Shown here in pieces: positions 1 to 26,901 of a DNA stretch of 64,000 nucleotides. Where the stretch lies: the NCBI GenBank assembly GCA_017619835.1, contig JAFZRN010000033.1:124001-188000 (forward strand), in the 5' to 3' direction. The notes beneath the pieces were generated by a model, which was not told the DNA's origin, did no database searches, and saw only the letters and a list, made by a program, of their open reading frames with translations. Every line of letters starts with the position of its first letter. The stretch's first letter is position 1. This DNA comes from Eubacterium sp. GTDB lineage: Bacteria; Bacillota; Clostridia; Lachnospirales; Lachnospiraceae. The translations under genes and the position numbers were made by a program.

Positions 1-607
1 TTCCCAGAGCATCACAGTTATCCTCTACCAGCCATAGTCCATGCTCTGTACAGAATTCTTTAACAGCTTTAATGTCAAAAGGATTTCCGAGTGTATGAGC
101 TATCATAACAGCCTTAGTCCTTGGACTAAGTGCTTCTTCAAGAAGTGATATATCGATATTGTATTCGGGAAGAGTCACGTCCAGAAAAACAGGAATAGCA
201 CCATACTGGATTATAGGTGCTATCGTCGTAGGAAATCCCGCGGCAACAGTTATAACCTCATCTCCCTTTTTTACCTGTCTATCACCTAACAGAGGAGATG
301 TAAGTGCCATAAATGCAAGAAGATTTGCAGAAGATCCACTGTTAACAAGACTTACGAATCTCACTCCAAGCCACTCAGCAAAGCTCTTTTCAAATTCATC
401 AGTAAACCGTCCTGATGTAAGCCAGAAATCAAGAGTTGCATCAGTGAGTGCCATCATCTCCTTTTCATCATAAACACGGGATGCATATGATATTCTGTCT
501 CCTGGATTATATGATTTTTCTATTTCAGGCTTTTTAAACTCATTATAGTATTCGGCAACCAGAGATTTTATCTCTTCACGCGCCTCAAGTTCATCAGACC
601 ATCTCAT
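1..607 (-). CDS. rfbH: CDP-4-keto-6-deoxyglucose 3-dehydrase, 5' part only
   Basis: Only the first 202 residues lie in the window; the gene continues past the left edge. Read from ATG at 605-607 it shows the aminotransferase-like fold of the RfbH/AscC/DdhC (E1) family, with NSGSSANLL near residue 93 and VEDNCDALG at the very edge. Known for the family: a PLP enzyme with a [2Fe-2S] cluster that removes the C-3 hydroxyl of CDP-4-keto-6-deoxyglucose, yielding CDP-3,6-dideoxy sugars, with a separate reductase partner. The active-site histidine and cluster cysteines are outside the window. The start overlaps the end of rfbG by 14 nt, so the two are probably translationally coupled. The call is firm because rfbF and rfbG lie directly upstream. 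Confidence 0.9.
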
Positions 608-1685
608 TTATCTCTTTCTCCATTTCTTCACGGATTTCGGCAGATGAAGTACTCTTCGCCTTTTCAAACTGCACTACCATTCTTACAGCTTTTTCAATGT
701 TCCATGACGGTTCCCAGCTAAATGTCTCCTTAAGCTTATCGCAGTTCAGTTTGAGGAATGTAGCTTCATGAGGACCTCCATCGGATCTTTCTTCCCATGA
801 GGCCCCTTCACCCCAGGCTTTACAGAATAAGTCTACAAGCTTTCCGGTTTCTATGCAGTCTGTATCATCAGGTCCGACATTATAATAACCGGCTTTACTC
901 TTATCCTCATACTGCTCCATTGCAATCATAAGATAAGCTCTTAATGGTTCAAGCACATGCTGATAAGGTCTTATAGAATACGGGCTCCTTACTATTATCG
1001 TTTCACCTTTTTCAGCAGCTCTGACACAGTCGGGTATAATACGATCTATAGCATAATCACCTCCGCCGATTACGTTTCCGGCGCGGGCTGTTGATACTGC
1101 AATACCCTTTTCATTAAAGAATGATCTTATATAACTGTGAGTGACAAGTTCGGAACATGACTTGGAATTCGAATACGGATCATAACCATCTAATTGTTCA
1201 TCCTCACGGAAACCTTCCGGACGATCAATGTCATCATTAAGATATACCTTATCGGTTGTCACATTAAGAAAACTCTTCACAGTATCAGATAATCTTACTG
1301 CTTCACATATGTTGACCGTTCCCATCACATTTGTCTCATATGTATATGCGGGATATTTATACGACTCGCGAACAATCGGCTGTGCAGCTAGATGGAGCAC
1401 AATATCAGGCTTAGCGTCCAGCAATGTTGCAACAAGCTTCTCTCTGTCACGCACGTCTCCGATGATATGAGCAATATCTCTGCTGGTTTCAGACATCTCA
1501 AAAAGACTGGGATCAGTCGGTGGTTCCAGCGAATAGCCTGTCACATCTGCTCCCATCAATAGAAGCATACGGGTGAGCCAGGTTCCCTTAAAACCGGTGT
1601 GTCCGGTTATGAAAACACGTTTTCCGTTATAAAACTCTCTAAGATTACTCATATTACTTATAGAAAAATGATCCTTCCTCTTCAT
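594..1685 (-). CDS. rfbG: CDP-glucose 4,6-dehydratase
   Basis: Extended short-chain dehydratase, 363 aa from the first ATG. The NAD-binding motif TGHTGFKG is at residues 27-34, TTDKVY at 143-148 and the catalytic YSNSK (Tyr171, Lys175) follows. It converts CDP-glucose to CDP-4-keto-6-deoxyglucose, the substrate for RfbH. The start is ambiguous. ATG at 1685 overlaps rfbF by 32 nt and has AGAAGG upstream. ATG at 1652 starts one base after the rfbF stop, gives the usual N-terminus before the Rossmann motif, but its AGGAAGG lies about 18 nt away. It is part of rfbF-rfbG-rfbH. TGHTGFKG and the neighbours separate it from dTDP-glucose dehydratases. Confidence 0.95.
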
Positions 1686-2481
1686 TTTGGCCGGCCTTCT
1701 GGTGCTTATCCCATTTCATCCATGGAGCACTGCCTTCTTCGATTATTTCGTTCAGTCTGTCCATTTCACGCTTAGTATCCATACATTGCCAGAAACCATC
1801 AAATTCATATGCCACCAACTGTCCTTCAGATGCAAGAGACCTCATTGGTCCCTGTTCAAAAACGGTAGTATCATCCTCGAGATAATCAAAAATCTTTGGT
1901 TCAAGGACCATGTAGCCACCGTTTATTCTGGCGCCATCTGAATCTTCTTTTTCTCTGAAGCTGCTTATAGTCTTATCTTCTTCAATATCAAGAATACCAA
2001 ACCTCTGTCCAAGCTCTACTGCTGTTATAGTAGCAGTTTTCCCATGTGATTTATGAAAATCATAAAGCTTCTGCATATTAATATCACATACACCATCACC
2101 ATATGTAAGCATAAAGGTTTCATCACCCACATACTTACGTATACGTTTGATTCGTCCTCCGGTCATGGTGTCGAGACCAGTATCGACAATGGTAACCTTC
2201 CATGGTTCTGCAACGTTATTATGGATCGTCATTTCATTATCATTGGCAAAATCAAATGTAATATCCGAATTATGCAGATAATAATTTGCAAAGTATTCTT
2301 TTATAACATGCTGCTTATAACCGGCACATATAACGAATTCGTTGAATCCATAATAAGAATACTCCTTCATGATATGCCACAGGATTGGTTTACCACCTAT
2401 CTCGATCATCGGCTTTGGTCTAAGATGACTTTCTTCACTTATTCTAGTGCCGTAACCTCCGGCCAATACTACTACTTTCAT
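1654..2481 (-). CDS. rfbF: Glucose-1-phosphate cytidylyltransferase
   Basis: 275 aa, normal length for RfbF. The N-terminus carries the nucleotidyltransferase signature LAGGYGTR (residues 6-13) and RPKPM (21-25), followed by GGKPILWHI. Further in, TYGDGVCDI supplies the metal-binding Asp region. It makes CDP-glucose from CTP and glucose-1-phosphate, the entry point of the CDP-3,6-dideoxyhexose pathway. AAGGGG lies 5-6 nt before the ATG. The gene follows ispC with a 9-nt gap and leads straight into rfbG, so all four genes are probably on one transcript. RmlA-type thymidylyltransferases lack this pattern and are longer. Confidence 0.95.
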   Translation of the reverse strand: MKVVVLAGGYGTRISEESHLRPKPMIEIGGKPILWHIMKEYSYYGFNEFVICAGYKQHVIKEYFANYYLHNSDITFDFANDNEMTIHNNVAEPWKVTIVDTGLDTMTGGRIKRIRKYVGDETFMLTYGDGVCDINMQKLYDFHKSHGKTATITAVELGQRFGILDIEEDKTISSFREKEDSDGARINGGYMVLEPKIFDYLEDDTTVFEQGPMRSLASEGQLVAYEFDGFWQCMDTKREMDRLNEIIEEGSAPWMKWDKHQKAGQNEEEGSFFYK

Positions 2482-3669: not shown

Positions 3670-3701
3670 AACTTTTACATAACCTTTCACTATATATATT
3701 T

Positions 3702-7949: not shown

Positions 7950-7982
7950 TTATTTACCTCAACCATTTCAGCATAATTCTGA

Positions 7983-8900: not shown

Positions 8901-8926
8901 ATACTGTACCCTTAAAACTAAAAAAA

Positions 8927-9646: not shown

Positions 9647-9694
9647 AGTATTATTTCCTCTTACTTATAAGATTACGGACAAACATGTTTAGAT

Positions 9695-10390: not shown

Positions 10391-10399
10391 GCTTTACTC

Positions 10400-12493: not shown

Positions 12494-15400
12494 TTAATTT
12501 TCTCTTGTTTTTTCCTCTTGGTTGTCTGTGCCAAAGATAATGGCAAAGACCAGTATTGCCACTTCCAGAATCGGAAGAATATAACGTGAATCCGGTGCAG
12601 GGATTACAAATAATAAGAGTAAGGTATAGATTGCAGATGGCAGATATACCAGAATTAATTCTTTTTTCTTTTTAATACACAGAACCACAGTAGTAAGAAC
12701 AAGGAAAAACAGTGAAATGCCTCCTCTGAGAAACATCGATTCCAGAAGCGGTATATCTGCATACACTTCGGAAAAACGCTGAGTAAGTTCATAAACCGGA
12801 GTATATGTCACTTCTTCAAATTGTCCTACTTTACATAGCGGTGTTATCGGTACGTAGTAATCTCCTAAGTCTGCCGGAGATGATATCTCCCAGATCACAT
12901 TTCCCATAGCCAGAAATGCTCTCAAATAAACTATAGGATGTTTTATCAGCAGCTTGGCATTCATTTTGATAATGAAAGCCCCATAATGTTCATTCTTTAC
13001 AAGATCATTAAGCTTTACAACGTTATCATAGCCTATATCGCCCCAAAGCCTAGCCATATTATCAACCCAGTATTTATCATAGCATTCTGCCCATGTTGAA
13101 ACCGGCATTAATTTTTCAAGTTCGGCTTTTTCTGAATCCGTAAATTCCACACCATCTGCCGCAGCCGCACCTATCATAGATACAGGGGTACCATACTTAA
13201 CATAGGCATCTACTTTAGGAACACCATTATAGTTAAATAATACAATATATACCAATATATATGCAATAATATGAATCGCCGGAATACTTATCAGTTTGAT
13301 TACCTGTTTCGCATTCGAACATGGATATTTATTTCTGATAAGATAAACCGAAATGATAATAACCGCAATAATAGTAGCTATATAACCACCTTGTCTGCAC
13401 AGAGTAGCAAATAAAGATGCTATCCCTGCCACCAGAATATCTGTTTTTCTGATTGTCTTATTAATGACAATAAAGAATACTCCTGCTGAAAGAGCAAGAA
13501 TTCCCATTGAGAAAACAGTATCCTTAAATATAACCTCAAGATGGATAATGGGATTCATCGACAACACACATAGCAATGAATATGCTTTCATTGCTTTTTT
13601 AGACCATTTATCCAGACCTTTGATAATATATAGATTGATTATAAGCCAGATTATTGTCTGAACTATATTTACATTATATGGATATTGTCCGCCACAACTT
13701 ACAACATCTACAAAAAGCAGGAATCCATAGGTATCCCAGTCACTTACTCTTCCCTCTGCAGCTTCAAGCAGCACTCTCGCTACATCATCTCTCATCCAGA
13801 TTCCGGGATACGTAGAGAACAGGAACATTAAGGATACAACCGCTACTATCCCAAAACACACCCAGGAATTATCCAGTATATCTTTTTTATCACCTAGTCT
13901 GATAATACGATCACAATTCATCAGTTTTTCGAAAATCCTGAAGATAACAATATATGAGCAGAATACTAAAGCCGGTATATAAAACAGCCACTTCCATATC
14001 TGATGAATCATAAAGCCATCTATCAACGAGGATTTATTTATTATATCACTTATTGGAAGCATACATAGCATAAGTGCTGTAAGTACGATGATCATCCTTT
14101 TTTTCACGTTATTCCCCATATCAAATGGACAACCCTTTTTTATAACAAACAGGATAAATCCGATCAATATGATGAACCAGCCATTCATAAACGCCTTTTC
14201 ATTTGAAGCATTAAAAACAAGATGAACAGGGAACAATGCTGCCAAAAGATATATAACACTTAATACATAAACCAGCTTCTTTCTGAATGATTCTTCTTCA
14301 AACTTAGCTTTAATCTTTAACAGTTTATAAATCAAAAGAAACATTGTAAAAATAAAGCTTATCTGCCATCCTATCGTAAATCCTTCCGGCATATATCTTA
14401 ATTCTATCAGATGCGTTCCGGCACCGACCCTTAAGCCTATACCATCCATAGTATGAAAGATTTCTGACTCAACCCCATCTATATATGCTGTAAAACCGGG
14501 AAGAGCCGGCATGGAAAGATATAGCAGTTTATCTGAATCAGATTCAATAACTCCGGTAATCCTATCTCCTTCAAACGTCTGATTCATCATAGAAGAATCT
14601 ATCAATGTATTATATAACTTAGTCAGATTCTCCTCATTTAGTACACCGATGATCATACTATCCTGAATACCGGTGTTGATGGTTTTCTGGGCATAAAAAT
14701 ACAGATCATTTCCTTCTTCAGATGTATTCCCGATATATTCAAGTGCCTGAGCTATCTGAAGATAAAACTTGCCTTTTTCTTCTTTACCAAAATGGAATGA
14801 ATAAAGAACATTGCCTTCGGCATCCTGTTCGACATAATAATATGAATCATCTTCAGTCATGCCGTCCTTAAAGCTTTCTATTTCAAATGTATCATATATA
14901 TTATCTACACCGATTGCTTCGGCAAACTTATTGTCTCTTTCAAAACTCGAAGAATAATTTCTGTATGTTTCCGACTTAACAGCCCATTCGGATATAGCCT
15001 TCTCATCCATTAATGTTCCAAGCGGCAGATAATACGGATTTTCAAACAAGTATATATTATTCTCACAATCAATAGGAACATATGGTGATTTAGCAAGCAT
15101 ATTCTCTGAATTGATCACATGATACTTTACATGAAGCATCATATCCGCCAGCGGAGATCCGGCAGTATAATACGTAATATTATTTGAAAACAGCATCCCC
15201 CATCTGTACATAAGATCAAAATTCTGTCTGAAGCTTCGAGATGAATAGTAACTGACAGAATGCGAATCTGTCATATAAGCTATATCCTGATTATACATTT
15301 CTCCCGGTCTTTCGGTAGCCACATACGGTGATTTCATATCCGAATGTCGCTCAACCAGCTTTGACATATCAGAAACATAGTTCATCTCATAATCATTCAA

Positions 15401-16834
15401 GGGATTTTCAAATGTTCTCATAAATGTCGGTATAGAACTGATCACTACTTCAAATATAAGAACAGCTGAGAGAAACGGATAAACATACTTTTTTATAGTT
15501 CCAAGATAATTAAGCAGAACAATGATAAAATATGTTCCAAGAAAAACAAAACTGAAATAAAAAGAGCCCATTCCAGTTTCAGCGAGATCCGGGGTTTTGG
15601 CACCGATAAAATAAGATATTATAAGGATAGCTCCTGATATAATACAGCTGCACAGTATCAGCTTCTTATCGATATCCTTAAATCGAATCAGAACATCGCC
15701 AAACATTACCAGTATGATAAAGATAAAAAAGCAGGAAAATCTGTTGGGTACCTGCCACTGATAATGAAAACCATGAAAAACAAAATTGATCAGCTGATTA
15801 TCAAAACCAAGGTATATCAAGACAAGTAAAGCAGCAGTTTTGATCCGGATGATAATATCAATATCTTTTAAAAATACAAAAACGGGAACTAACAAAATTA
15901 CGAGAAGTCCGCAATATATGTTTACTCTGTATTCATATGGAGATGTGACCATACCAGTGTTAGCCACTCTGAATTCCGATAACGGATAAAAAATCGAACC
16001 AAACCATTTTAATAAGCTTGGTAATGAACCATCATTTCTTCCATATGGTGAGTTCCTCGTTTTCAAAAAATAAGGAATAAGAAATGATGCTGCAAGACCT
16101 GCACTGCACACAGATGATACGGCAAATCTAAACGTATTTATGAAAAAAGTCCTTATATTCTTATGTTTCAGTATCAGAAAATATAAACCACTGAATATAC
16201 ACAGGATAAATGCATAGTATGCATCCATTATCATGTAATAAGTAAGCGAAATGATATAGAGCCTTGAGCTTTTATCATATACCATCTTTTCAATCCCGAG
16301 AAAAACTATCGGGATTATCATCATATATCTGAATACATATATGAAAAAACTGATTGAATAAACAGAAAGTGCATAACAGAGCCCCAAAACAATAAGAACC
16401 GGATCATCCGACTTTATGGTTTTTCCGTTTCTTCTATGAGTGAGATAATATATAAAAATCGGGCCCGGAAGGATAAAAAATAAAGCATACTGAAAGAAAA
16501 ATATATATACATACAGACTTTCAGGAGCAAAAAAGTAAACAGGATATAACCAGGGTCTCATGTTATAAACATCGGTATTCTCAAAAGTAAGACCGATGCC
16601 ATAATCAAGAAAACTAAAAAAACGTCCTGACTTCACCTGTTTTACGGCATTGAGAAAACTGGAATAATCCTGAAAATAGCCATTTCCGGCTAATGGAAAA
16701 TTGTTTCCAAAGGGCATGCATCCACGAATAACCATTCCAATGCACATGACAAGAAAAGAAACTACTATGACAATTATATAAGATCTATATCTGATTATTT
16801 TATTCTTTATCAAAATTAACACGTTCCTTTTCAA
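12494..16834 (-). CDS. Giant membrane protein: YfhO family fused to DUF6020-like GT-C domain
   Basis: 1446 aa. Residues 1-460 form a multi-spanning block beginning with the anchor at 16-38 and a YfhO-like loop (GNGYFQDYSSFLNAVKQ, then SGRFFSFLDYGIGL). Residues 465-770 are largely extracytoplasmic and soluble. From about 780 on there is a second multi-spanning block; STYPGIWMRDD near residue 1015 resembles the luminal acidic motif of GT-C enzymes and of DUF6020 proteins. YfhO proteins act in lipoteichoic acid glycosylation in Bacillus/Listeria, using undecaprenyl-phosphate sugars made by a GtrB-like partner; that partner is the adjacent gene, which this one overlaps by 35 nt. The fusion of two membrane glycosyltransferase-like units is unusual. 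Confidence 0.8.
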   Translation of the reverse strand: MKRNVLILIKNKIIRYRSYIIVIVVSFLVMCIGMVIRGCMPFGNNFPLAGNGYFQDYSSFLNAVKQVKSGRFFSFLDYGIGLTFENTDVYNMRPWLYPVYFFAPESLYVYIFFFQYALFFILPGPIFIYYLTHRRNGKTIKSDDPVLIVLGLCYALSVYSISFFIYVFRYMMIIPIVFLGIEKMVYDKSSRLYIISLTYYMIMDAYYAFILCIFSGLYFLILKHKNIRTFFINTFRFAVSSVCSAGLAASFLIPYFLKTRNSPYGRNDGSLPSLLKWFGSIFYPLSEFRVANTGMVTSPYEYRVNIYCGLLVILLVPVFVFLKDIDIIIRIKTAALLVLIYLGFDNQLINFVFHGFHYQWQVPNRFSCFFIFIILVMFGDVLIRFKDIDKKLILCSCIISGAILIISYFIGAKTPDLAETGMGSFYFSFVFLGTYFIIVLLNYLGTIKKYVYPFLSAVLIFEVVISSIPTFMRTFENPLNDYEMNYVSDMSKLVERHSDMKSPYVATERPGEMYNQDIAYMTDSHSVSYYSSRSFRQNFDLMYRWGMLFSNNITYYTAGSPLADMMLHVKYHVINSENMLAKSPYVPIDCENNIYLFENPYYLPLGTLMDEKAISEWAVKSETYRNYSSSFERDNKFAEAIGVDNIYDTFEIESFKDGMTEDDSYYYVEQDAEGNVLYSFHFGKEEKGKFYLQIAQALEYIGNTSEEGNDLYFYAQKTINTGIQDSMIIGVLNEENLTKLYNTLIDSSMMNQTFEGDRITGVIESDSDKLLYLSMPALPGFTAYIDGVESEIFHTMDGIGLRVGAGTHLIELRYMPEGFTIGWQISFIFTMFLLIYKLLKIKAKFEEESFRKKLVYVLSVIYLLAALFPVHLVFNASNEKAFMNGWFIILIGFILFVIKKGCPFDMGNNVKKRMIIVLTALMLCMLPISDIINKSSLIDGFMIHQIWKWLFYIPALVFCSYIVIFRIFEKLMNCDRIIRLGDKKDILDNSWVCFGIVAVVSLMFLFSTYPGIWMRDDVARVLLEAAEGRVSDWDTYGFLLFVDVVSCGGQYPYNVNIVQTIIWLIINLYIIKGLDKWSKKAMKAYSLLCVLSMNPIIHLEVIFKDTVFSMGILALSAGVFFIVINKTIRKTDILVAGIASLFATLCRQGGYIATIIAVIIISVYLIRNKYPCSNAKQVIKLISIPAIHIIAYILVYIVLFNYNGVPKVDAYVKYGTPVSMIGAAAADGVEFTDSEKAELEKLMPVSTWAECYDKYWVDNMARLWGDIGYDNVVKLNDLVKNEHYGAFIIKMNAKLLIKHPIVYLRAFLAMGNVIWEISSPADLGDYYVPITPLCKVGQFEEVTYTPVYELTQRFSEVYADIPLLESMFLRGGISLFFLVLTTVVLCIKKKKELILVYLPSAIYTLLLLFVIPAPDSRYILPILEVAILVFAIIFGTDNQEEKTREN

Positions 16835-17747
16835 TAACTAGCGGTCTTTTCTCTACTCTCTTCAGGATTTCACCAATATACTCTCCTATAATTCCCAGGA
16901 ATATGAGCACAACTCCGCCAATAAAAAACATACCGATAAGAACCGGTGCCATACCGGCATTAAAATTATTCCAATTGACCAGCTTCATAATAAGATAAAT
17001 GATAGCAAAAACAAAGCTGACAAAAGAGAATACTATTCCAAGATATGTTGTGATCCTCAGCGGAACTCTGGAGGTATTTACAAGCGAACTAAGCGCATAA
17101 TCAAGATACGAGAAGAAATTATAGCTTGATTTACCACGCTTTCTTTTCGGCTGCTCATACTTTATAAAGTATGTTTCATATCCAAGTTCAGCAACAAGAT
17201 GCCTTATACTTGGTTCGGGTTCTTCAAGCTTCTCTATTTCTCTGATAACTTCTTTATCGTAGAGGCCAAATCCGGTAACCTGCTCAAAAACAGGTACATC
17301 CGCAAATGCTTTTATGATCTTATAGTAAAGTCTTCTGCAAGCAAGCATTATGATATTATCGTGAGTCTTTGCTTTCTGAGCAAGAACTACCTTATACCCC
17401 TCTTCCCATTTTTCAAGGAATTCCGGAATCATCTCAGGTGGATCCTGAAGATCGGAAACAAGTCCGATACATACATCCCCGGACATCTGATATTTTGCAT
17501 GAAGATCAGAACGAAGAGGTCCGTAATTCCTGAGATTTACGATCAGTTTTATTCTGGGATCTTCTTTAGCATATTCTTTTATCTTATCAACCGTTCCATC
17601 TTTAGAACAATTATCGGCAAATATATGCTCATAATCATAATCAGGAAGAGACTTAAATACATCTCGCACTCTGCTTATAAGTTCATCGATATTGCCTTCC
17701 TCGTTAAAACAGGGTGTTACAATACTAACCAGTTTTTTTGCACTCAT
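16800..17747 (-). CDS. Polyprenyl-phosphate glycosyltransferase (GtrB/DPM-like GT2)
   Basis: 315 aa. An N-terminal GT-A domain starts VSIVTPCFNEEGNIDEL, and the catalytic pair is Asp99 and Asp102 in SDLQDPPE, the signature of GtrB/ArnC/DPM1 enzymes. KRKRGKSSYNFFSYLDYALSS precedes two C-terminal membrane helices (about 235-258 and 270-293). Such enzymes make undecaprenyl-phosphate-linked monosaccharide at the cytoplasmic face for a GT-C enzyme outside. The gene overlaps the YfhO-DUF6020 gene by 35 nt, so the pair very likely works together to decorate glycan or teichoic acid. Sugar identity unknown. Confidence 0.92.
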   Translation of the reverse strand: MSAKKLVSIVTPCFNEEGNIDELISRVRDVFKSLPDYDYEHIFADNCSKDGTVDKIKEYAKEDPRIKLIVNLRNYGPLRSDLHAKYQMSGDVCIGLVSDLQDPPEMIPEFLEKWEEGYKVVLAQKAKTHDNIIMLACRRLYYKIIKAFADVPVFEQVTGFGLYDKEVIREIEKLEEPEPSIRHLVAELGYETYFIKYEQPKRKRGKSSYNFFSYLDYALSSLVNTSRVPLRITTYLGIVFSFVSFVFAIIYLIMKLVNWNNFNAGMAPVLIGMFFIGGVVLIFLGIIGEYIGEILKRVEKRPLVIEKERVNFDKE

Positions 17748-18303
17748 TAAAATACTTCTCCAAAAAATCTTTATAACATTTCTGACCTTCTACAAGTAGC
17801 TCAGGACAGCTGTCAAACCATTTCAGATAACCTTCATCAGTAACATTTTTATCACGATTATCAATTACATACTTATCATCTACATAGCATTTATATAAAA
17901 GAGAGATTGAATGACCCCTTCTCTGATATGGCATAAAGATCTCACTTATCTTTATAGGTTCATCATCATGAGTAACCTCGTCTCCGATCTCATTTAAAGC
18001 CGTTTTAATGATCCGGTCATGGAAAGTCTCTTTATATCTAATTATCCCCCCGGGAATATGCCATCCTAAATTTTTTCCGTCATCTCTCCAGGCGAACAGG
18101 AGTTTTCCGTCTTTCTCTATCAAAAGATCAACATTGATCATGGGAGTTATCGAAGCCACAAAAGAAAATACATCATCATCCAGTCCTTCTTTAGCTCCCT
18201 TTATCGCATCGGATGTAGTTTTTGAATCAAATACAAAACTACTCTTTTCCATACAATCCATCACTTCCCAATATCCGCCATATGACATCCGGATATTTTT
18301 CAT
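17725..18303 (-). CDS. Nudix hydrolase, GDP-mannose mannosyl hydrolase-like
   Basis: 192 aa from the first ATG. The Nudix loop GGIIRYKETFHDRIIKTALN is followed by EIGDEV; it keeps the glycine and first glutamate but has TAL in place of the usual REL, as in the GDP-mannose mannosyl hydrolase (Gmm/NudD) branch. WHIPGG and the sugar-nucleotide gene neighbourhood support hydrolysis of an NDP-sugar. The first ATG overlaps the upstream methyltransferase by 65 nt; internal ATGs at 18261 or 18252 with GGGAAG upstream are plausible true starts. It overlaps the downstream GtrB-like gene by 23 nt. Confidence 0.75.
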   Translation of the reverse strand: MKNIRMSYGGYWEVMDCMEKSSFVFDSKTTSDAIKGAKEGLDDDVFSFVASITPMINVDLLIEKDGKLLFAWRDDGKNLGWHIPGGIIRYKETFHDRIIKTALNEIGDEVTHDDEPIKISEIFMPYQRRGHSISLLYKCYVDDKYVIDNRDKNVTDEGYLKWFDSCPELLVEGQKCYKDFLEKYFNECKKTG

Positions 18304-19378
18304 CCATAATCCTGCTGATCTCTTCTGAATAGCTTCCGGCCATTATTATGACCACACTGATTCCCTTTGCAGACATTTCACTAGGAGCAACTATCGGTAT
18401 ATGTGTTGCAGGAGTATAAAACCCTTGTTTAAAATCTGCCGAATCTAAAACATACTCCACATATCTATCCATTTCCAGAAGGGACATATTGGCAAGAGCC
18501 TGATGACCGGCTCCCCAGATTGCGATCTTTTCACCTTTATCCTTACACCCCTTAAGAAATGTTTGTATTTCATGATACAGTTTATCTTTCTGATCCTGCA
18601 TAGAAGAAAGGTTCATAATGCTTCTTTTTCTTACAACAGCAGAAAGAATATAGTCATACCATATCGGTTTTAACTCGAGAACGTCAAAACCATTATGTTC
18701 AAGCAGAGTTTTTAAAGTATCACTTCTGAAATATGATAGATGATCCTGGATAAACTCCGAATACATGTCTTCCTTCAGCATCATATCAAAATTCGGAACC
18801 TCTACTATTCCAACCGCACCATTACTTAAGTTATTGAAGATACCTCTGACAAATCCGGCAGGATCAGGAATATGTTCAAGATAATTCATTATATAAAATC
18901 CATCATATGGTCCGCCGTCTATCACATACGACTCATCTTCTATAAAGCCTTTGATCATCTTATGCCCTGCAGCTTCTGCTTTTTCAACAGACGACTTGAG
19001 ATGTTCCAGACCATAAACCTGTTTACAGGAAGCTTCCATATACTGCATATATTCACCGGAGCCCGCTCCGATCTCTATGATTTTTTTGTCAGCCAGACCG
19101 TATTTATCTACAAATTCAGAATATTGCTTATTTCTGAAAGAACCCATTTCCCCGGATACTCCGGTAGCTCTTATCACATCCCTGAAATATGATACCGGTT
19201 CACCCGACGCCTGTACGAGGCCACAATAAGGACATTGATATAAAACTATATCAACCCCCTTTTCTGTATCCAGTTCATCCTCTTTAGGAAAAAACTGAGC
19301 ACTTTTAGGCATATTGTTTAGAACAAATATCGGTTCCGATTTTATTGGCGATTTACAGCATCTGCATGATATATTCAA
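18239..19378 (-). CDS. Sugar C-methyltransferase-like protein (zinc-finger N-terminus, SAM domain, C-terminal domain)
   Basis: 379 aa. The N-terminus has a zinc-binding cysteine set (Cys5, Cys7, Cys8; Cys49, Cys52) and PIFVLNNMPKSAQFFP, typical of the Methyltransf_13 zinc domain. A class I SAM domain follows with IIEIGAGSGEYMQYM near residue 100 and a MNYLEHIPDP segment, then a C-terminal GAGHQAL-containing Rossmann-like domain near 290. This three-part layout matches NDP-sugar C-3 methyltransferases such as TylC3, NovU and EryBIII, which act on 4-keto-6-deoxy sugars. The stop overlaps nothing upstream; its start overlaps the SDR gene by 4 nt (ATGA). A methyl-branched sugar is the simplest inference. 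Confidence 0.82.
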   Translation of the reverse strand: MNISCRCCKSPIKSEPIFVLNNMPKSAQFFPKEDELDTEKGVDIVLYQCPYCGLVQASGEPVSYFRDVIRATGVSGEMGSFRNKQYSEFVDKYGLADKKIIEIGAGSGEYMQYMEASCKQVYGLEHLKSSVEKAEAAGHKMIKGFIEDESYVIDGGPYDGFYIMNYLEHIPDPAGFVRGIFNNLSNGAVGIVEVPNFDMMLKEDMYSEFIQDHLSYFRSDTLKTLLEHNGFDVLELKPIWYDYILSAVVRKRSIMNLSSMQDQKDKLYHEIQTFLKGCKDKGEKIAIWGAGHQALANMSLLEMDRYVEYVLDSADFKQGFYTPATHIPIVAPSEMSAKGISVVIIMAGSYSEEISRIMDEKYPDVIWRILGSDGLYGKE

Positions 19379-20328
19379 AGCATTTCCTCTCTGATGGAAT
19401 CAGCTATCTCTTTTATGCCTTCGGTAAATGAATACTCTTCTTTAAATCCGGTATGAGATACTAACTTATCAACATCTGCCATAAGGTATTTGATCCTTCC
19501 ACCCGGATAAGACCTTTTTCCGATTCCGGCAGCTTCCTTACCTGTGATAGTAATATATAACTCATTTATATATTCACAAAGTCTTTTTTCATTCTGACTG
19601 GCTACATTATAGCATTCTCCGTCCGTGCCTTTCTCGGCCAGAAGAAGAAGCGCTTTAGCCGCATCAAAGGAATAGAGATAATTCCACATCTGTTCTCCCT
19701 TTGTATAGTCCATGGATTCACCTTTAAGAAGACCTCTGATACTTGTATCTACCATACTCTCGGTAGCATCTCTTGGACCATAAACACTGAAAAGGATAGG
19801 CCATATATGTCTTATTCCATATTCACGGCATAATGCTCTGGTCATCTCTTCAGCACAGAATTTTGCCATTCCATAACCATTTACAGGTTTCTTTGGAAAA
19901 TCTTCGCTTATAGACTTTGCCTCAAAATAATCCCCATATTCGGCCTGAGAACCTGTCATGATAAATGTTTTGCAGTCAATCCTGTGACATAACTCTACTG
20001 CATCAACAGCATAAGTCGTATTCTGGCTCTGCATATGGAAATTATTACGATTATTAACTTTTTCTTTGCCCCTGGATCCATCCCAGGCAAGATGAAAGAA
20101 CACATCATAAGAATGATCTTTTAACTGATCATATAAGGAATCACTTAAAAGATCATCCAGTCCGGCATATACTTTTCGTAATCCCGGATCATCCGGAACA
20201 TACTTTTCTCTGACAGAACCGGGACGGATTATCGCCGTTACCTCAATTCCTTTTGTAAGAAGATATCTTACAAGAGCATTTCCGGTAACACCGGTTCCAC
20301 CTGTAACAATTACTCTTTTTATTTCCAT
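19375..20328 (-). CDS. NAD(P)-dependent NDP-sugar epimerase/reductase (extended SDR)
   Basis: 317 aa. The Rossmann motif GGTGVTG is at residues 10-16, Ser127 in TGSQAEYG, and the catalytic pair is Tyr152 and Lys156 (YGMAK). The C-terminal half has VYGPRD and WNYLYSFDAAKALLLL, as in sugar epimerases, 4-reductases and CDP-abequose/paratose synthase-like enzymes. Given CDP-dideoxy-sugar genes at the left and a C-methyltransferase next door, a role as final 4-keto reductase or epimerase is the most likely, but the substrate is not determined by sequence. Overlaps the downstream methyltransferase by 4 nt and follows the radical SAM gene by 20 nt. Confidence 0.85.
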   Translation of the reverse strand: MEIKRVIVTGGTGVTGNALVRYLLTKGIEVTAIIRPGSVREKYVPDDPGLRKVYAGLDDLLSDSLYDQLKDHSYDVFFHLAWDGSRGKEKVNNRNNFHMQSQNTTYAVDAVELCHRIDCKTFIMTGSQAEYGDYFEAKSISEDFPKKPVNGYGMAKFCAEEMTRALCREYGIRHIWPILFSVYGPRDATESMVDTSIRGLLKGESMDYTKGEQMWNYLYSFDAAKALLLLAEKGTDGECYNVASQNEKRLCEYINELYITITGKEAAGIGKRSYPGGRIKYLMADVDKLVSHTGFKEEYSFTEGIKEIADSIREEML

Positions 20329-20348
20329 AGATCTTCACTCTTTATGAA

Positions 20349-21425
20349 TCAGTTGATCCAATAAGGTTTAAGTGTTCTATCCTCTTCAGAAAATACTTCA
20401 TCACATGGAACCGGCACATCTTTTCTGTCATAGATATGAGGTTCTACATGTTTCTTGATAAAGTTCATATCCTCAGCTATGAGACATGTATCAACATGCT
20501 CACCGAAATATTTGATATCAAGGCCCTTCTGAATAATATCTTTAAGAGGAGTATCCAGAATATTACCAATTGATGTATGGATATAAGGACATGGCTGAAC
20601 ATCTCCGAATCTGGTTACGGTAATAAAGCCTTTTACCCCTATACAGCCCATATCAAGTTCATATGCAGGAGTGAGATGTGTACATACTCTATACTTCTGC
20701 TCTAATTCATGCATATAGGCAAAATCTTCTTTCTTTACCATATTGTCATAATGTCTTGCCCATGCTCCAACCGGTTTAGCATAAGAAACAAATACCATAA
20801 GACCCATTCCATTGAAATATTCAAGGAATTCTTTAAACTCATCCGAATAAAGACGAGGTCTGTCTACAACCGTCTGGATATAAAGCGGAAGACCTATTCT
20901 CTGGCATTCCTTTATACCTAATAATGCATGCTCGTAAGCACCCGGCATATGTCTGAACGCATCATGTTCCTCAGCATTAAGACTATCAATACTAAGCTGC
21001 ATTCTGTCTATTCCGATCTCTTTCAGATGTTCTGCCTTCTTTTCAAGAAGGAATCCATTAGTGTCGCAGTTTATATAGAATCTTTCAGGTCCTATAGCCT
21101 GAACAAGCTCGTCGAGATCCGGAAATACGGTAGGTTCTCCTCCGCTTATTACAAATCTGGCAAGTCCCATTGCATCTGCCTGGTCAGCAAGATTCTTTAC
21201 ATCAGCCGGAGTGATTATTCTCTTACCATCTTTATTTCCCTGGAATTCAAGAATTGAACAATGCTCACACTTCATATTGCAGATATAGTTATATTGAAGC
21301 TGAATGATAGCGATGCTTTCGCCTCTCTCATACTTTTCTTTAAACTTTATAACCTTATCGTATACGAGTGGTTTTTTGTCCTTCAGATAATTTCTTCCTG
21401 CCTGTTCATTATTATTTAATGCCAT
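20349..21425 (-). CDS. Radical SAM/SPASM protein
   Basis: 358 aa. The cluster cysteines Cys49, Cys53 and Cys56 lie in YICNMKCEHC, followed by VISGGEPTVFPD (the SAM-binding GGEP) and CDTNGFLL. Later cysteines (VCTHLTP, DMGCIGVKG, VQPCPYIHTSIG, DTCL) fit SPASM-type auxiliary clusters. This architecture is best known from peptide maturases, but here it lies 13 nt downstream of a NeuB-like gene and 20 nt upstream of an NDP-sugar SDR, with no small precursor ORF. A radical step on a sugar, such as dehydration, epimerisation or carbon-skeleton change, is plausible but unproven. Confidence 0.88.
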   Translation of the reverse strand: MALNNNEQAGRNYLKDKKPLVYDKVIKFKEKYERGESIAIIQLQYNYICNMKCEHCSILEFQGNKDGKRIITPADVKNLADQADAMGLARFVISGGEPTVFPDLDELVQAIGPERFYINCDTNGFLLEKKAEHLKEIGIDRMQLSIDSLNAEEHDAFRHMPGAYEHALLGIKECQRIGLPLYIQTVVDRPRLYSDEFKEFLEYFNGMGLMVFVSYAKPVGAWARHYDNMVKKEDFAYMHELEQKYRVCTHLTPAYELDMGCIGVKGFITVTRFGDVQPCPYIHTSIGNILDTPLKDIIQKGLDIKYFGEHVDTCLIAEDMNFIKKHVEPHIYDRKDVPVPCDEVFSEEDRTLKPYWIN

Positions 21426-21438
21426 TTTGTACTACCCC

Positions 21439-22971
21439 CTAAATGTCCATATTTTCTATCATTTCAGCAGTGATATATATTTTTGTCTTTCTGGGACTTA
21501 CAAATTCATCATGCTCGTCATAGAAAGAGTCATTTATATAATGAGTTGTCGATACTTCTTCAAAAACACAGCCTTCTTCGGAACTGAAGGAATGCTTTAC
21601 ATTTCTCTGTACTGTCATTGTCTGACCACGCTGCATATGTGATACTATTCCATCACAGTTGATATCAAGACTACCATACAGGATTGTAAAGGTTTCTTCT
21701 TTCTCTTTATGAAGATGAACCGGATGCTTTTGTCCCGGAAGTACTACAAGTATCTTCTTACAATATTCACGGTTTATACAATCTATCAGAGTAACTCCGA
21801 CTTCCTCAAAACGTTCAACACCATAGTGGTGGGATATCTCGCATTTACTGTCCAGAGGAATAGTGACATTACTCTTTTTAAGAATCTTCATAACCTTTTT
21901 TACAAGCTCTGCGATATATCCCTGATTATTCACAACGAATATATCACTCAGGTAAATAGGCTCACCTGCTTTCTTTGGATTCTTGAGAGTTATCTCGGAA
22001 TACTTTGACATATTTCTGGTTAAGAGCTGCTCTTTTTCACAAGGGAAAGCAAAGAATACATCATCAGACTGAAGTTCTGTCCCTTCAGCTATATCCTTAC
22101 CTGCAAAAACACCTCTCTGCAGAGCACTGAGATCACTCTGCTCTTTCTCGGTAGATTTATGTCTTTCTCCAGCCAAACCGCACATCTTAAAGGTTTCATA
22201 TGCCGTTTTAACCCACTCTTTAACCTGATCGGGATTAGCAGAATAAAGATTTAATGTGATGGTATCAGTAGGAAGACCTACGTGCTTTTCAAATACTCTT
22301 ACATTTTTTGCCACCGCAATCTTGATCGGTTCCATATTGGAAGGATCTTCATGTGTGGAAAAACCTACAATATGTCCCTTATATCTGTCTCTCAGATAAT
22401 CTATCTGATTCATCTGAAGATTTTCATTTGAGGTCGGATATTCAGCCACACAATGCATAAGTGTGAGGCTTATGTTTCTATGTTCAAAGAAAGAAACAAC
22501 CTTATCTATCTCTTCTACAGGAACTCCTGCAGTTGAAGCTATGACAGGTAATCCTGTCTTAGATACAGCTTCAAGAAGAGGCCAGTCGTTGAATGAACAG
22601 CTGGCTATCTTTATCACATCATATCCCTGCTCGGATATCCTTTCGACTGATTTCTCATCAAATCCTGTACACATGGTATACATACCAGAGTCAGACACCG
22701 TATTCTTTAACTCAAGGAATTCTTCCTGTGATAATCTGGTATCCTTGAACCGTTTCACATTCTTTATATCATCCCTGTTTATATAATCGGGTCTGATAAA
22801 TGTATCCAGATCACGATACTGGAACTTTACCGCAAAATCAAAAGCATCCCTGTAATCAGAAACTGCCTCAGCCATGGCTTTTATTATATTCTTTCCATGT
22901 TCAACACTTCCCTGATGATTGTTTGCCATTTCAAATATAAACAGCGGTTTATCGTAAAGTGCCATGTTCAC
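21439..22971 (-). CDS. NeuB-family sugar-acid synthase with SAF domain, fused to a C-terminal cupin
   Basis: 510 aa. Residues 7-270 form a NeuB-like TIM barrel: FEMANNHQG (Glu14, His19), VKFQ (Lys49), HCVAEYPT, GFSTHE and EKHVGLP match the PEP-condensing sialic/legionaminic/pseudaminic synthase pattern. Residues 280-350 are an SAF (antifreeze-like) domain beginning LQRGVFAGKDI. Residues 365-500 are a cupin with HPVHLHKEKEETF and RNVKHSF, resembling D-lyxose-isomerase-like cupins. Known NeuB enzymes join PEP to an aldose to make a nonulosonic acid. No CMP-sugar synthetase (NeuA) or NeuC epimerase is in the window, so the product is open. It follows the ThDP enzyme by 8 nt. Confidence 0.88.
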   Translation of the reverse strand: MNMALYDKPLFIFEMANNHQGSVEHGKNIIKAMAEAVSDYRDAFDFAVKFQYRDLDTFIRPDYINRDDIKNVKRFKDTRLSQEEFLELKNTVSDSGMYTMCTGFDEKSVERISEQGYDVIKIASCSFNDWPLLEAVSKTGLPVIASTAGVPVEEIDKVVSFFEHRNISLTLMHCVAEYPTSNENLQMNQIDYLRDRYKGHIVGFSTHEDPSNMEPIKIAVAKNVRVFEKHVGLPTDTITLNLYSANPDQVKEWVKTAYETFKMCGLAGERHKSTEKEQSDLSALQRGVFAGKDIAEGTELQSDDVFFAFPCEKEQLLTRNMSKYSEITLKNPKKAGEPIYLSDIFVVNNQGYIAELVKKVMKILKKSNVTIPLDSKCEISHHYGVERFEEVGVTLIDCINREYCKKILVVLPGQKHPVHLHKEKEETFTILYGSLDINCDGIVSHMQRGQTMTVQRNVKHSFSSEEGCVFEEVSTTHYINDSFYDEHDEFVSPRKTKIYITAEMIENMDI

Positions 22972-22979
22972 CTCCGTGT

Positions 22980-24776
22980 TTAATTATTTAGTATTGTTAT
23001 TACTTCATCCAGCTTTTCAGGCGTCATAAAAGGATATGGATTTTCAAGTGCTGCAGACTGTCTGAGCCCCGTCTCCGGATTCACCCATGAGATACATTTG
23101 GGTATCTCATCAAAATAAAGAGAACCTCGTACCGAAACAATTACCGGTCCCTCATAATCCATGGCTTCAGAAACCACCTTTTCAATATCACTGTCAGCAT
23201 CTATCTCAAAACACTTTATTCCGTATGCCTCTGCCACTTTTACGGTATCAGGCATAACTACTCCGCTTTTCTCATTACTTCCGACATAAAAACTGTCAAA
23301 GTTCCTGTCTTGCATCGTCGTTATAGCCGCATAGCCTCTGTTGTCAAATATAAACATCTTGGCATCAACATTATATGAAACTATAGTCTGAAGTTCCTGG
23401 ATATTAAGCTGCAGGCTTCCGTCTCCTTCAAAAACTATAACTCTCTTTTTACTTGCTTCATATGCTCCGACTGCTGACGGGATGGCAAAACCCATCGAGC
23501 CCATACCCATTGAAGATATGGTTTTCTGTCCCTTTTTATGTCTGAATGCAATATGTCCTGCCGTATTGCATCTGCTGGTAGAAGATATAACTATTACATC
23601 ATCTGATTTAGAGTATTTAGATACAGTATCGGTAATCTTATATAGATTGACATACTCTTCCTTATCCTGCTTCTCGGCAAGTATGGGATAGCTGTCTTTT
23701 ACTGTATTACAAGCTTGGATCCAGGAATCATATGTAGTAACGGTCCCTTTTTCCTTGTAAAGACTGACAAGCTGATCAGTAAAACTCTTTACATCACAGA
23801 CCACCTTGATCTTACCGGGCATATTAAGCTTATCGATCTCATTTTCATCTATATCTACGATTATCCTTTTTGCTTTATATGCAAAGTGCTCCTCATTGAA
23901 TGCAGTGATCATGTTATCAAGCCTGGAGCCCAGAACTAGAAGTACGTCTGCATTCTGGATTATAAGATTCGAATATCTCGGAGCCTGAAGTCCCGGACTT
24001 CCATAGAACCCTTCCTCTTCAGTATCCATAAAATCCAGTGCTCGCCAGGTGCTCATTACCGGAATTCCGGATAAGCTTATAAGTTCTCTTATGCTGTCAT
24101 AAGCTCCAGAAGAAACCGCACCCTGTCCTATTAGCAGAAGCGGTCTTTGAGCCGAAGATATTATACCATAAATCTCTTCTAATTGTGCCTTATCAACTGC
24201 TTTCGGAGCATTGTTCTCAGAAAGTTCATAATTATCAAATCCCCTGAGACTATCTTCATCTATCTCAGCTGACTGGATATCAAGCGGAATGTCCAGCCAA
24301 ACCGGTCCCTTACGACCATGAGTGGCAATATAAAAGGACTTTTCCAGCTCATATCTGATATCTTCCGGATTCTCGATCAGCTTGGCATATTTAGTAACCG
24401 GCTTTGCCATGGATATGATGTCATTCTCCTGGGCACCAAACTGTCTTACGTTTCTGAGAGCTGCAAAGTCACTTCTCTTAACCTGACCTGAAAGAAAAAC
24501 GACCGGTGTGGAATCTACATATGCTGCGGCACATCCTGTCAGAGCATTTGTTCCACCCGGACCTGTCGTAGAAAGACAAATTGCCGGAGTCTCATCATAC
24601 ATTGTTGCAGCCTGGGCAGCAATTGAAGCTGCCTGTTCATGATGACAACAGGTATAGCTGATCCCACTATGACCAAGCGAATCAACCAGATGCATGATTC
24701 CGCCTCCGGAAAGCATGAAGACATTTCTCACGTTGTTTTCTTTATAGAACTTAAAAACATAATCTGATAATTTCAT
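22980..24776 (-). CDS. ThDP-dependent enzyme of the acetolactate synthase superfamily (YerE-like candidate)
   Basis: 598 aa with the three-domain layout of acetohydroxyacid synthase. The activating Glu47 is in CCHHEQAAS, followed by TTGPGGTNALTG; the ThDP/Mg motif is GDGSLQLNIQEL to FDNRGYA in the C-terminal domain. Housekeeping IlvB has RHEQ and sits with ilvN, absent here. Related enzymes in sugar loci include YerE of Yersinia, which adds a two-carbon unit from pyruvate to CDP-4-keto-3,6-dideoxyglucose; RfbFGH at 1..2481 would supply exactly that substrate. Decarboxylation and transfer to another acceptor is also possible. The ATG overlaps the cdsA stop by one base (TAATG), so it is the first gene of the glycan block. 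Confidence 0.85.
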   Translation of the reverse strand: MKLSDYVFKFYKENNVRNVFMLSGGGIMHLVDSLGHSGISYTCCHHEQAASIAAQAATMYDETPAICLSTTGPGGTNALTGCAAAYVDSTPVVFLSGQVKRSDFAALRNVRQFGAQENDIISMAKPVTKYAKLIENPEDIRYELEKSFYIATHGRKGPVWLDIPLDIQSAEIDEDSLRGFDNYELSENNAPKAVDKAQLEEIYGIISSAQRPLLLIGQGAVSSGAYDSIRELISLSGIPVMSTWRALDFMDTEEEGFYGSPGLQAPRYSNLIIQNADVLLVLGSRLDNMITAFNEEHFAYKAKRIIVDIDENEIDKLNMPGKIKVVCDVKSFTDQLVSLYKEKGTVTTYDSWIQACNTVKDSYPILAEKQDKEEYVNLYKITDTVSKYSKSDDVIVISSTSRCNTAGHIAFRHKKGQKTISSMGMGSMGFAIPSAVGAYEASKKRVIVFEGDGSLQLNIQELQTIVSYNVDAKMFIFDNRGYAAITTMQDRNFDSFYVGSNEKSGVVMPDTVKVAEAYGIKCFEIDADSDIEKVVSEAMDYEGPVIVSVRGSLYFDEIPKCISWVNPETGLRQSAALENPYPFMTPEKLDEVITILNN

Positions 24777-25600
24777 TACAGTATAAACTCCAATAAAAAA
24801 TAAATGATCGGTGCGGTGAAGATCATGCTGTCAAAACGGTCGAGTACACCGCCATGACCGGGAATGAGCTTACCGTAATCTTTAATGTCATTATTACGTT
24901 TGATCGCAGATGCGGCAAGATCGCCGATAACTGCGGGGATTGCTCCAAGAGAACAGATGATAAAAAGCTTTAGCGGAAGGTATAATGTGGGCTCGATATA
25001 GTTTTTAAGGAAAAAGCTATATATAAGGCCGAGGAGTCCTGCTCCCACTATTCCGCCGATAAGTCCTTCCACACTCTTCTTGGGACTGAGTTTCGGAGAC
25101 ATCTTGTGTTTTCCGAAAAGCATGCCGACGCAGTAGGCAAGGGTGTCATTTCCCCATGAACATATGAAACAGAGAACGACGAAAAAGCCGCCATTTGGCA
25201 TTTCTCTTATCTTATATATGTATGAGAGCATTACACTCACATAGAAGAATGCCATGAATGCCGCCATTATCTCACGGTCATGATACTTGGGATATTTAAT
25301 TACATAGAATGCGAGAATGATCAAAAGATATGTGATCATTATCGGCATTGCAAGGGTGCTAAGGTCAAAGCCTTCAACACGGACATTTCCGAGCATGAGC
25401 GCTACGTAATAAAGCACTGTCCAGATGTACGCAAGTACCGCCGGCGAGTGCTTTTCAATCTTATATACGCGGCAGAGTTCGAAAACTCCCACGATGGATA
25501 GGAGCATCATTGCGATTCCCGTGACGGGGCCGCCAAAGAAAAGCACAACGAATGCAGCTATCACCAGCACTATTCCACTTATTAATCTAGTTACAAACAT
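24776..25600 (-). CDS. cdsA: Phosphatidate cytidylyltransferase
   Basis: 274 aa from ATG at 25600, which has GGTGGAG about six bases upstream and starts one base after the uppS stop; an upstream in-frame ATG at 25645 would overlap uppS by 44 nt and is less likely. About eight membrane segments; the C-terminal signature GHGGVLDRFDS is the CDP-alcohol synthesis family mark. It makes CDP-diacylglycerol for phospholipid synthesis in the membrane. It is the last standard gene of pyrH-frr-uppS-cdsA, and its stop overlaps the start of the ThDP gene, so transcription probably runs on into the glycan locus. Confidence 0.96.
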   Translation of the reverse strand: MFVTRLISGIVLVIAAFVVLFFGGPVTGIAMMLLSIVGVFELCRVYKIEKHSPAVLAYIWTVLYYVALMLGNVRVEGFDLSTLAMPIMITYLLIILAFYVIKYPKYHDREIMAAFMAFFYVSVMLSYIYKIREMPNGGFFVVLCFICSWGNDTLAYCVGMLFGKHKMSPKLSPKKSVEGLIGGIVGAGLLGLIYSFFLKNYIEPTLYLPLKLFIICSLGAIPAVIGDLAASAIKRNNDIKDYGKLIPGHGGVLDRFDSMIFTAPIIYFLLEFIL

Positions 25601-25601
25601 T

Positions 25602-26312: not shown

Positions 26313-26323
26313 TATATCATTCC

Positions 26324-26866: not shown

Positions 26867-26901
26867 ATCTTGTAACCTCCATTTTGTTTTATGCTAGATT
26901 A

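Follow-up and report, generated by a model that had tools for sequence, protein, structure and literature searches.

What sugar is made by five consecutive minus-strand genes at positions 18239 to 24776 of a 64,000-nt stretch of Eubacterium sp. assembly GCA_017619835.1 (contig JAFZRN010000033.1, positions 124,001 to 188,000; hereafter the window), which belongs to a 2.75 Mb genome that is 93% complete (G000)? The initial annotation proposed that a pyruvate-decarboxylating-type thiamine diphosphate (ThDP) enzyme, a NeuB-family protein fused to a cupin, a radical S-adenosylmethionine (SAM) protein, a short-chain dehydrogenase/reductase (SDR) and a zinc-finger C-methyltransferase together build a carbon-branched or higher-carbon acidic sugar. 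Our results agree that the genes form one pathway, with a carbon-branched sugar as the best reading, because the ThDP enzyme is YerE-like and the genes RfbF, RfbG and RfbH lie in the same locus. We consider it probable that the pathway branches sugars in the manner of YerE and that the NeuB-cupin protein is its dedicated module for making a long-chain donor. Gene content, synteny, protein families, fold and tree were observed, and from them we infer every reaction, substrate and chain length. The coordinates of the open reading frames (ORFs) confirmed the reported positions and spacing, with gaps in order of 8, 13 and 20 nt and then one 4-nt overlap between the SDR and methyltransferase genes:

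22980..24776, minus strand: predicted YerE-like ThDP carboligase (Pfam TPP N, M and C domains; best solved relative 8rph; tree set)
21439..22971, minus strand: NeuB-cupin, a predicted phosphoenolpyruvate-condensing synthase at about residues 7-346 with an SAF domain, plus a D-lyxose-isomerase-like cupin at about residues 350-510
20349..21425, minus strand: radical SAM protein with auxiliary-cluster cysteines (Pfam, alignment, model with a predicted local distance difference test score of 90.9, co-occurrence with NUDIX)
19375..20328, minus strand: SDR, putative ketoreductase acting on the C1' carbonyl of the branch (Pfam Epimerase 135.2 bits, cut-off 20.9)
18239..19378, minus strand: zinc-finger C-methyltransferase with a TTG start, like TcaB9/mycarose C3-methyltransferase (Pfam; PDB 4rv9, 4e2x)

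Pfam scores exceeded the cut-offs for the ThDP, NeuB, cupin, radical SAM, SDR and methyltransferase families, and of the original family labels SPASM proved approximate (20.0 bits, cut-off 21.5). The motifs named earlier (HHEQ, the NeuB histidines, CxxxCxxC, GGEP and YxxxK, the last as YGMAK) were all present.

The ThDP enzyme is YerE-like, with aldehyde-ketone cross-coupling as its predicted activity. Its TPP N, M and C domains scored 98, 98.9 and 111.8 bits, each above the Pfam cut-off, and E47 of the HHEQ motif was invariant in a 36-row alignment. The closest solved structure was JanthE (8rph, E 2e-92), followed by acetolactate synthase (AHAS; E 6.6e-73). An identity as acetolactate synthase was rejected (acolac_lg 345.6 bits, cut-off 538), and four AHAS outgroup sequences were separated in the ThDP tree with 100% support in the Shimodaira-Hasegawa-like approximate likelihood ratio test (SH-aLRT). 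Of the YerE-like enzymes YerE, ErwE, MMAR_2332 and JanthE, the comparison covered JanthE, through the PDB. JanthE is described as YerE-like, with its physiological substrates not yet identified (PMC12188165). In a phage collection, 50 records matched the ThDP enzyme; among the 20 listed, identity was 26-31% and several were annotated as acetolactate synthase.

The adjoining protein combines a NeuB domain (Pfam PF03102, 130.8 bits, cut-off 22.1) with a Cupin_2 domain (30.8 bits, cut-off 27.2). Residues K49, K121, H207 and H230, which we take to be the metal and phosphoenolpyruvate (PEP) residues of NeuB, were conserved in 43/43 aligned sequences. The protein shares the NeuB fold, the metal histidine pair and the SAF domain with the sialic, pseudaminic and legionaminic acid synthases (NeuB, PseI, LegI), whereas it scores below their equivalog cut-offs, carries a C-terminal cupin and comes from a genome without a cytidine monophosphate (CMP) sugar synthetase above cut-off. 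An identity as sialic or pseudaminic acid synthase was rejected (NCBIfam NeuB_NnaB 134.7 versus 399.65 bits; PseI 110.5 versus 340.25). Identity to NeuB was about 24%, compared with 51% to the uncharacterised Chromobacterium violaceum protein 3g8r. The VIA-align match list was dominated by the NeuB domain and says nothing on the cupin, for which Foldseek returned 2y0o (E 1.2e-10), 3kmh and 7nzp/q. The domain probably shares the cupin fold of D-lyxose/D-mannose isomerases, and its putative HxH, E and H metal positions align with 2y0o; of these, H421, E426 and H460 were found in 43/43 sequences and H419 in 23/43. The Pfam Lyx_isomer score passed its cut-off (25.1 bits, cut-off 20.8), whereas the NCBIfam equivalog was far from reached (18.8 of 350 bits), and the fusion to NeuB and a first histidine that is often glutamine further distinguish the window protein from these isomerases. 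In a plasmid collection, 90 records matched NeuB-cupin; the 20 listed showed 23-28% identity, none covering 80%.

The association of the two genes was assessed in other genomes with a profile from a three-sequence alignment, which was run against genome contigs; the best 80 of 117 loci were kept, 41 of them flanked by 8 kb or more on each side (full-flank loci). Counts over the 80 loci come from six-frame hidden Markov model (HMM) searches, since longest-ORF calling loses genes in GC-rich loci. The loci span Lachnospiraceae, Microcystis, Mycobacterium, Chromobacterium, Rhodocyclaceae, Magnetococcales, Bacteroidales, Planctomycetota, Acidobacteria and others, and include two archaeal metagenome-assembled genomes (Altiarchaeota L031, Micrarchaeota L044). 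A ThDP gene was present in 75/80 loci (74/79 without L025, a duplicate of L009), within 1.5 kb in 72 and on the same strand in 73, with a median gap of 4 bp between the open frames; it was more distant in L018 (8.9 kb) and L078 (3.5 kb). As a control, we used 29 of the 30 best-scoring ordinary NeuB matches plus the next one from 196 genomes of the same order, and a window-type ThDP gene lay within 1.5 kb in 0/30. By coordinates, two ordinary NeuB genes (G142:C62, G041:C25) have such a ThDP gene no more than 10 kb away. NeuB-cupin and the ThDP enzyme are a fixed pair.

The initial annotation would have been refuted by genes that rarely occur together in other genomes, and this did not apply to the core pair. 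All five (with either of two methyltransferase and any of three SDR types) occurred in 25/80 loci and the exact window types in 5/80, so the radical SAM protein and the methyltransferase are common additions, not core. The 41 full-flank loci contained ThDP in 40, radical SAM in 22, NUDIX in 19 and the c5-type methyltransferase in 22, and a family 2 glycosyltransferase (GT2) of the window type was found in 25/80 loci. HAD-like genes of three types lay within 2 kb of NeuB in 22/80 loci (12 c14, 8 c16, 2 c80), and in 13 of the 22 the gene separates NeuB from ThDP; the c14 assignment is weak (no Pfam above cut-off, NT5C 19.8 versus 24.8 bits; DxD-type motif by eye). Separately, L129, L130 and L054 (ThDP at 3569-5356) have a YerE-like ThDP beside a NeuB of ordinary length without typical RfbFGH nearby, possibly another undescribed use of ThDP with a nonulosonic acid.

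Donor genes were then surveyed beside related ThDP enzymes. When 295 genomes of the same order were searched with a ThDP profile, 42 matches reached 434 bits or more; many others scored near 370-410 bits, and we regard most of these as acetolactate synthases. The 42 include the three NeuB-cupin partners of G000, G163 and G222; the other 39 loci were taken, 38 of them with a labelled ThDP. Within 6 kb of these 38 we found RfbF in 25, RfbH in 20, RfbG in 19, the window SDR type in 18, HMGL-like genes in 8, NeuB without cupin in 4 and acetaldehyde dehydrogenase in 2. L116 encodes a 4-hydroxy-2-oxovalerate aldolase (349 bits, cut-off 286) and an acetylating acetaldehyde dehydrogenase (374 bits, cut-off 282), both above equivalog cut-off; their product would be a donor of the type reported for ErwE, which prefers 4-hydroxy-2-oxo acids and makes no use of pyruvate (PMC12247030). 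In L109, a cupin-less NeuB lies beside a fused KdsC-like HAD and GmhA-like SIS domain, all below cut-off (GmhA models 163 of 276 and 159 of 209 bits; KdsC 87.8 of 107); a KdsD-like reading of the SIS domain was dropped, the closest models being GmhA. Both L109 and L107 carry a xylose-isomerase-like protein. In a minority of related loci, then, a gene able to make a 2-oxo acid adjoins the ThDP gene, and in two of them non-homologous isomerase-like proteins stand where the cupin is missing. L114, L123, L136 and L137 show RfbF-ThDP pairs beside very large proteins (>1500 aa), with few other known sugar genes.

The ThDP tree (99 rows with the four AHAS sequences, near-duplicates L025, L065 and L067 dropped; "quick" method, 20 rows of odd composition) placed 52 of 53 NeuB-cupin-linked ThDPs in one 59-row set with 99% SH-aLRT. 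The other seven members were L107, L109, L104, L105, L106, L108 and L078, the last with its NeuB-cupin 3.5 kb away; the L104 and L105 sequences end inside the radical SAM gene and may carry NeuB-cupin as well. Linkage to NeuB-cupin required 6 changes on the tree versus 32.9 in shuffles (0/500), and the HMGL label required 8 changes for 8 rows and is thus scattered. ThDPs labelled as having no donor gene fell outside the NeuB-linked set in 26 of 30 cases, and pyruvate, the donor suggested by the initial annotation, is therefore unlikely for the window enzyme, which lies inside it.

The putative acceptor genes are located at the left end of the window (2-2481) and were absent from the gene set of the initial annotation:

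1654..2481, minus strand: RfbF, glucose-1-phosphate cytidylyltransferase (TIGR02623 383 bits, cut-off 300)
594..1685, minus strand: RfbG, cytidine diphosphate (CDP)-glucose 4,6-dehydratase (TIGR02622 416 bits, cut-off 278)
2..607, minus strand: N-terminal part of RfbH, CDP-4-keto-6-deoxyglucose 3-dehydrase (NF011936 298.6 bits over 202 aa, whole-protein cut-off 423)

RfbH is cut by the window edge, and its C-terminal part in the adjoining L091 carries PPHHMTMGEGG and CxCx7C, presumably the marks of a pyridoxal phosphate/iron-sulfur 3-dehydrase. In the near relatives L012 and L014, RfbF directly adjoins the ThDP gene. Across the 41 full-flank loci, RfbF occurred in 30, RfbG in 27 and RfbH in 29, with any of the three in 33/41 and all three in 25/41. 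The RfbFGH product, CDP-3,6-dideoxy-4-keto-glucose, is the acceptor of YerE (PMC12247030).

In the pathway we propose, RfbF, RfbG and RfbH would make a CDP-3,6-dideoxy-4-keto-hexose. The cupin domain, acting as a ketol isomerase, would provide an aldose, and condensation of this aldose with PEP by the NeuB domain would form a 3-deoxy-2-ulosonic acid that probably has eight carbons. Where relatives have a HAD-type gene nearby, its enzyme would remove a phosphate. The ThDP enzyme would then decarboxylate the ulosonic acid and attach the resulting acyl anion at the ketone on C4; the product would be a tertiary alcohol bearing a long polyhydroxy branch with a deoxy C2' position. The SDR would reduce the branch ketone, the methyltransferase, radical SAM protein and NUDIX hydrolase may modify or police the CDP-sugar, and a PgfS-type glycosyltransferase would pass the sugar to the surface via polyprenyl phosphate.

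Among known systems, the YerE/yersiniose A pathway (with ErwE, JanthE and MMAR_2332) shares with the window a decarboxylase-superfamily ThDP enzyme, the RfbFGH acceptor genes and a ketoreductase-like SDR. It differs in the donor: YerE uses pyruvate (PMC12247030) and ErwE 4-hydroxy-2-oxo acids, whereas the window ThDP has NeuB-cupin as its fixed partner, which implies a longer, sugar-derived donor. A further likeness was found in the Mycobacterium gastri locus L068, which contains NeuB-cupin, ThDP, HAD, RfbF/G/H, GtrA and GT2; the window carries all of this gastriose-type set (NeuB-cupin, ThDP, RfbFGH, HAD) except HAD. L068 lacks a window-type radical SAM or NUDIX gene and has no c5-type methyltransferase above 69 bits, while it has GtrA and other methyltransferases. 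The M. gastri sugar is said, in titles by Gilleron from 1993 and 1994, to be a C4-branched 3,6-dideoxyhexose. The branch of gastriose is a seven-carbon chain, deoxy at C2', which matches a decarboxylated C8 3-deoxy-2-ulosonate. Because the M. gastri genome has a single YerE-like ThDP at E 1e-110, the L068 gene most likely encodes MygE, an enzyme reported to take part in gastriose formation and to accept 2-oxo acids of C3-C8 when benzaldehyde is the partner (PMC12247030). Caryophyllose of the M. marinum lipooligosaccharide, likewise a C4-branched 3,6-dideoxyhexose, has a 1,3,4,5-tetrahydroxyhexyl branch, whose position 2 is deoxy (PMC5706390), as expected from a 3-deoxy-2-oxo acid donor, although the branch is shorter, with 6 carbons. 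In the mycobacterial loci L064, L067, L068 and L073 we also observed a GtrA-like flippase (by Pfam for L068, by the same cluster in the others) and a PgfS-type GT2, which suggests delivery by a Gtr-type polyprenyl-phosphate system. The view of the initial annotation that no characterised pathway has this gene set needs qualifying, since descriptions exist of both YerE-like branching and M. gastri MygE (PMC12247030), whereas no proposal of a NeuB donor step for such branching was found in the open-licence literature searched. That 2025 review names the ThDP enzyme, and a word search of it finds no NeuB (PMC12247030).

Several observations weigh against the proposed pathway. The first metal histidine of the cupin is glutamine in 20/43 sequences, and no HAD gene was noted in the window locus, so that the aldose would have to be unphosphorylated or a phosphatase would have to act from a distant gene. 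Five of the 80 NeuB-cupin loci have no ThDP gene (L015 and L043, at contig ends; L019, L071 and L083), and the HMMs behind the counts were built from the same loci and find their own members by construction, which leaves the ordinary-NeuB control unaffected. Within the tree, L106 (HMGL) and L108 (no donor gene) fall inside the NeuB-linked set and L063, a NeuB-cupin partner, falls outside it. An HMGL-like gene in a sugar locus need not serve the ThDP enzyme, as in L014, where such a gene (identified by eye) neighbours a CMP-transferase gene. Finally, MygE is reported as inactive on ketones in vitro (PMC12247030).

The remaining adverse points bear on specific alternatives. The NeuB product might be kept as a nonulosonic or octulosonic acid while the ThDP enzyme, working on pyruvate, builds a separate acetyl-branched, yersiniose-like sugar from a merely shared operon. 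NeuB homologues usually make sialic-type acids, plain NeuB genes lie near some YerE-like ThDPs (L129, L130), and the CMP-sugar synthetase family PF02348 gave matches of 74-201 bits in six of 10 other carriers. One of the six is the near relative L014, which has the window gene order and in which roughly 12 kb separate the ThDP from a gene of the CMP-transferase family (73.9 bits). YerE itself also uses pyruvate (PMC12247030). In the window genome, however, the single PF02348 match scored 22.2 bits, below the cut-off of 22.6; Microcystis G300 had none, and three mycobacteria gave 25-30 bits, weak though above cut-off. The CMP-synthetase argument against an acidic sugar is thus strong in the window and in part of its relatives but does not extend to all of them. 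The NeuB_NnaB and PseI cut-offs are far from reached, the NeuB-cupin/ThDP pairing is too tight for independent use when set against the ordinary NeuB control, and the no-donor ThDPs mostly lie outside the NeuB-linked set, so we regard this separate-acid explanation as unlikely. The "acidic" sugar of the initial annotation is likewise unsupported: its carboxyl would be lost in the ThDP step, and no CMP-ulosonate synthetase scored above cut-off in the genome. A sialic-, pseudaminic- or legionaminic-type acid was rejected for the window genome on the equivalog scores and PF02348, and may apply to some relatives: the L014 locus may make an acidic sugar too. The CMP-transferase-family gene of L014 stands in a row with a kinase-like and an HMGL-like gene (L178:3814-7109, in the genome of L014). 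No such row was seen in the scanned part of the window, and it may serve a separate CMP-activated 2-oxo-acid sugar.

The order of reactions and the acceptor can also be questioned. If the ThDP enzyme acted first, it would give an aldose, branched or extended in chain, for NeuB-cupin to condense with PEP into a branched higher-carbon acid, a linear route that uses all five enzymes and fits a window gene order starting with ThDP. Against this, the M. gastri sugar is, going by the Gilleron titles, reportedly a branched dideoxyhexose and not an acid; the DmpG/DmpF-type neighbours in L116 make a 2-oxo acid, a donor and not an acceptor; no CMP activation gene scored above cut-off in the window genome; and YerE acts on a nucleoside diphosphate (NDP)-keto sugar (PMC12247030), leaving no free aldehyde for NeuB. 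We consider this order highly improbable. Alternatively, the NeuB-ThDP branching module may be real with a different acceptor in the window, for example a CDP-6-deoxy-4-keto-hexose or a deoxythymidine diphosphate (dTDP) sugar. The RfbFGH genes lie 20-22 kb from the ThDP gene, across dxr, and could serve another sugar; FdtA, DegT and hexapeptide genes of the dTDP-3-amino-sugar type are present in the window; and none of RfbF, RfbG and RfbH was found in 8/41 full-flank loci. Yet the 20 window proteins covered by Pfam or NCBIfam scans revealed no second user of the RfbFGH product, and RfbF stands directly beside ThDP in L012 and L014, which makes a different acceptor quite unlikely.

The window SDR type accompanies the ThDP enzyme whatever the donor module, since 18 of the 38 YerE-like ThDPs in loci without visible NeuB-cupin have it within 6 kb, and this fits a branch ketoreductase. 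We propose that the SDR reduces the branch C1' carbonyl, a role that we assume to resemble that of YerF. Reduction of a branch ketone is described for the paulomycin octose (PMC4753412). The radical SAM protein (Pfam Radical_SAM 86.3 bits, cut-off 29.5) has auxiliary cysteines 261, 279 and 314 that were invariant in a 27-row alignment; it occurred in 33/80 NeuB-cupin loci and, at E 1e-70, in 2/295 genomes of the order, both times beside a YerE-like ThDP. Assignment of its function from fold was rejected, as the matches were generic (SkfB, MoaA, BlsE, PqqE, DesII, viperin). NUDIX was present in 18/22 full-flank loci with radical SAM versus 1/19 without (Fisher 7e-7, kinship of loci uncorrected). 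The methyltransferase matched Methyltransf_23 (63.8 bits, cut-off 27) and Methyltransf_14 (55.5 bits, cut-off 23.5). A B12-binding radical SAM protein (cluster c13) was seen in 13/80 NeuB-cupin loci, including L029, L036, L053, L055 and L062, and perhaps further C-methylates the branch.

The gene run extends beyond the five genes to NUDIX and then a polyprenyl-phosphate-type GT2:

17725..18303, minus strand: NUDIX hydrolase (Pfam NUDIX 23.6 bits, cut-off 21.1)
16800..17747, minus strand: GT2 of PgfS/ArnC type (NCBIfam PgfS 185 bits, below cut-off 500)
12494..16834, minus strand: large membrane glycosyltransferase, weakly PgfM-like (70.9 bits, cut-off 1500)

Around the sugar genes, the housekeeping order is pyrH-frr-uppS-cdsA, cassette, dxr, rfbFGH and then rseP-ispG-polC-like genes (window 2491-3690 and 24776-27603; L091), with dxr named by Pfam and the others by eye; in L011, pyrH-frr-uppS-cdsA likewise directly precedes ThDP. 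A second sugar set at 6756-11494, comprising a GNAT domain fused to an FdtA-type isomerase (7983-8900), an SDR, a hexapeptide acetyltransferase and a DegT aminotransferase, suggests a dTDP-3-acetamido sugar route, and a further radical SAM gene lies at 6756-7949. To the left of the window on the same contig, L091:1468-11109 encodes a secreted-looking repeat protein of 3213 residues.

The proposed YerE-type branched-sugar pathway is widespread, and its NeuB-cupin donor module is apparently undescribed, YerE-like enzymes being already known. As a possible generalisation, which we hold tentatively, C-branched surface sugars would arise from two parts, one constant (the CDP-4-keto-sugar acceptor route with a YerE-like ThDP enzyme) and one exchangeable (the donor cassette beside it), with NeuB-cupin as a bifunctional isomerase-synthase, in many bacterial phyla and some archaea. 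The absence of a cassette would mean pyruvate, a DmpG/DmpF-type aldolase short hydroxy chains, and NeuB-cupin long chains, with NeuB plus HAD-phosphoisomerase as a further cassette. If this generalisation is true, a sialic-acid-synthase fold has been put to a new use, in which acids are made only to be decarboxylated and joined to another sugar, and the window adds a radical SAM edit to this branching module. The proposed pathway suggests a function for a large family in which the single solved structure, 3g8r, bears the name "probable spore coat polysaccharide biosynthesis protein E", and would explain the source of long polyhydroxy branches such as that of gastriose, whose origin is unexplained in the literature searched. 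The neighbouring gene could likewise reveal which donors JanthE and other YerE-like enzymes use in nature. In the glycans of many organisms, gut commensals included, the pathway predicts a chemical signature, namely a C4 tertiary alcohol with a branch that is deoxy at C2'.

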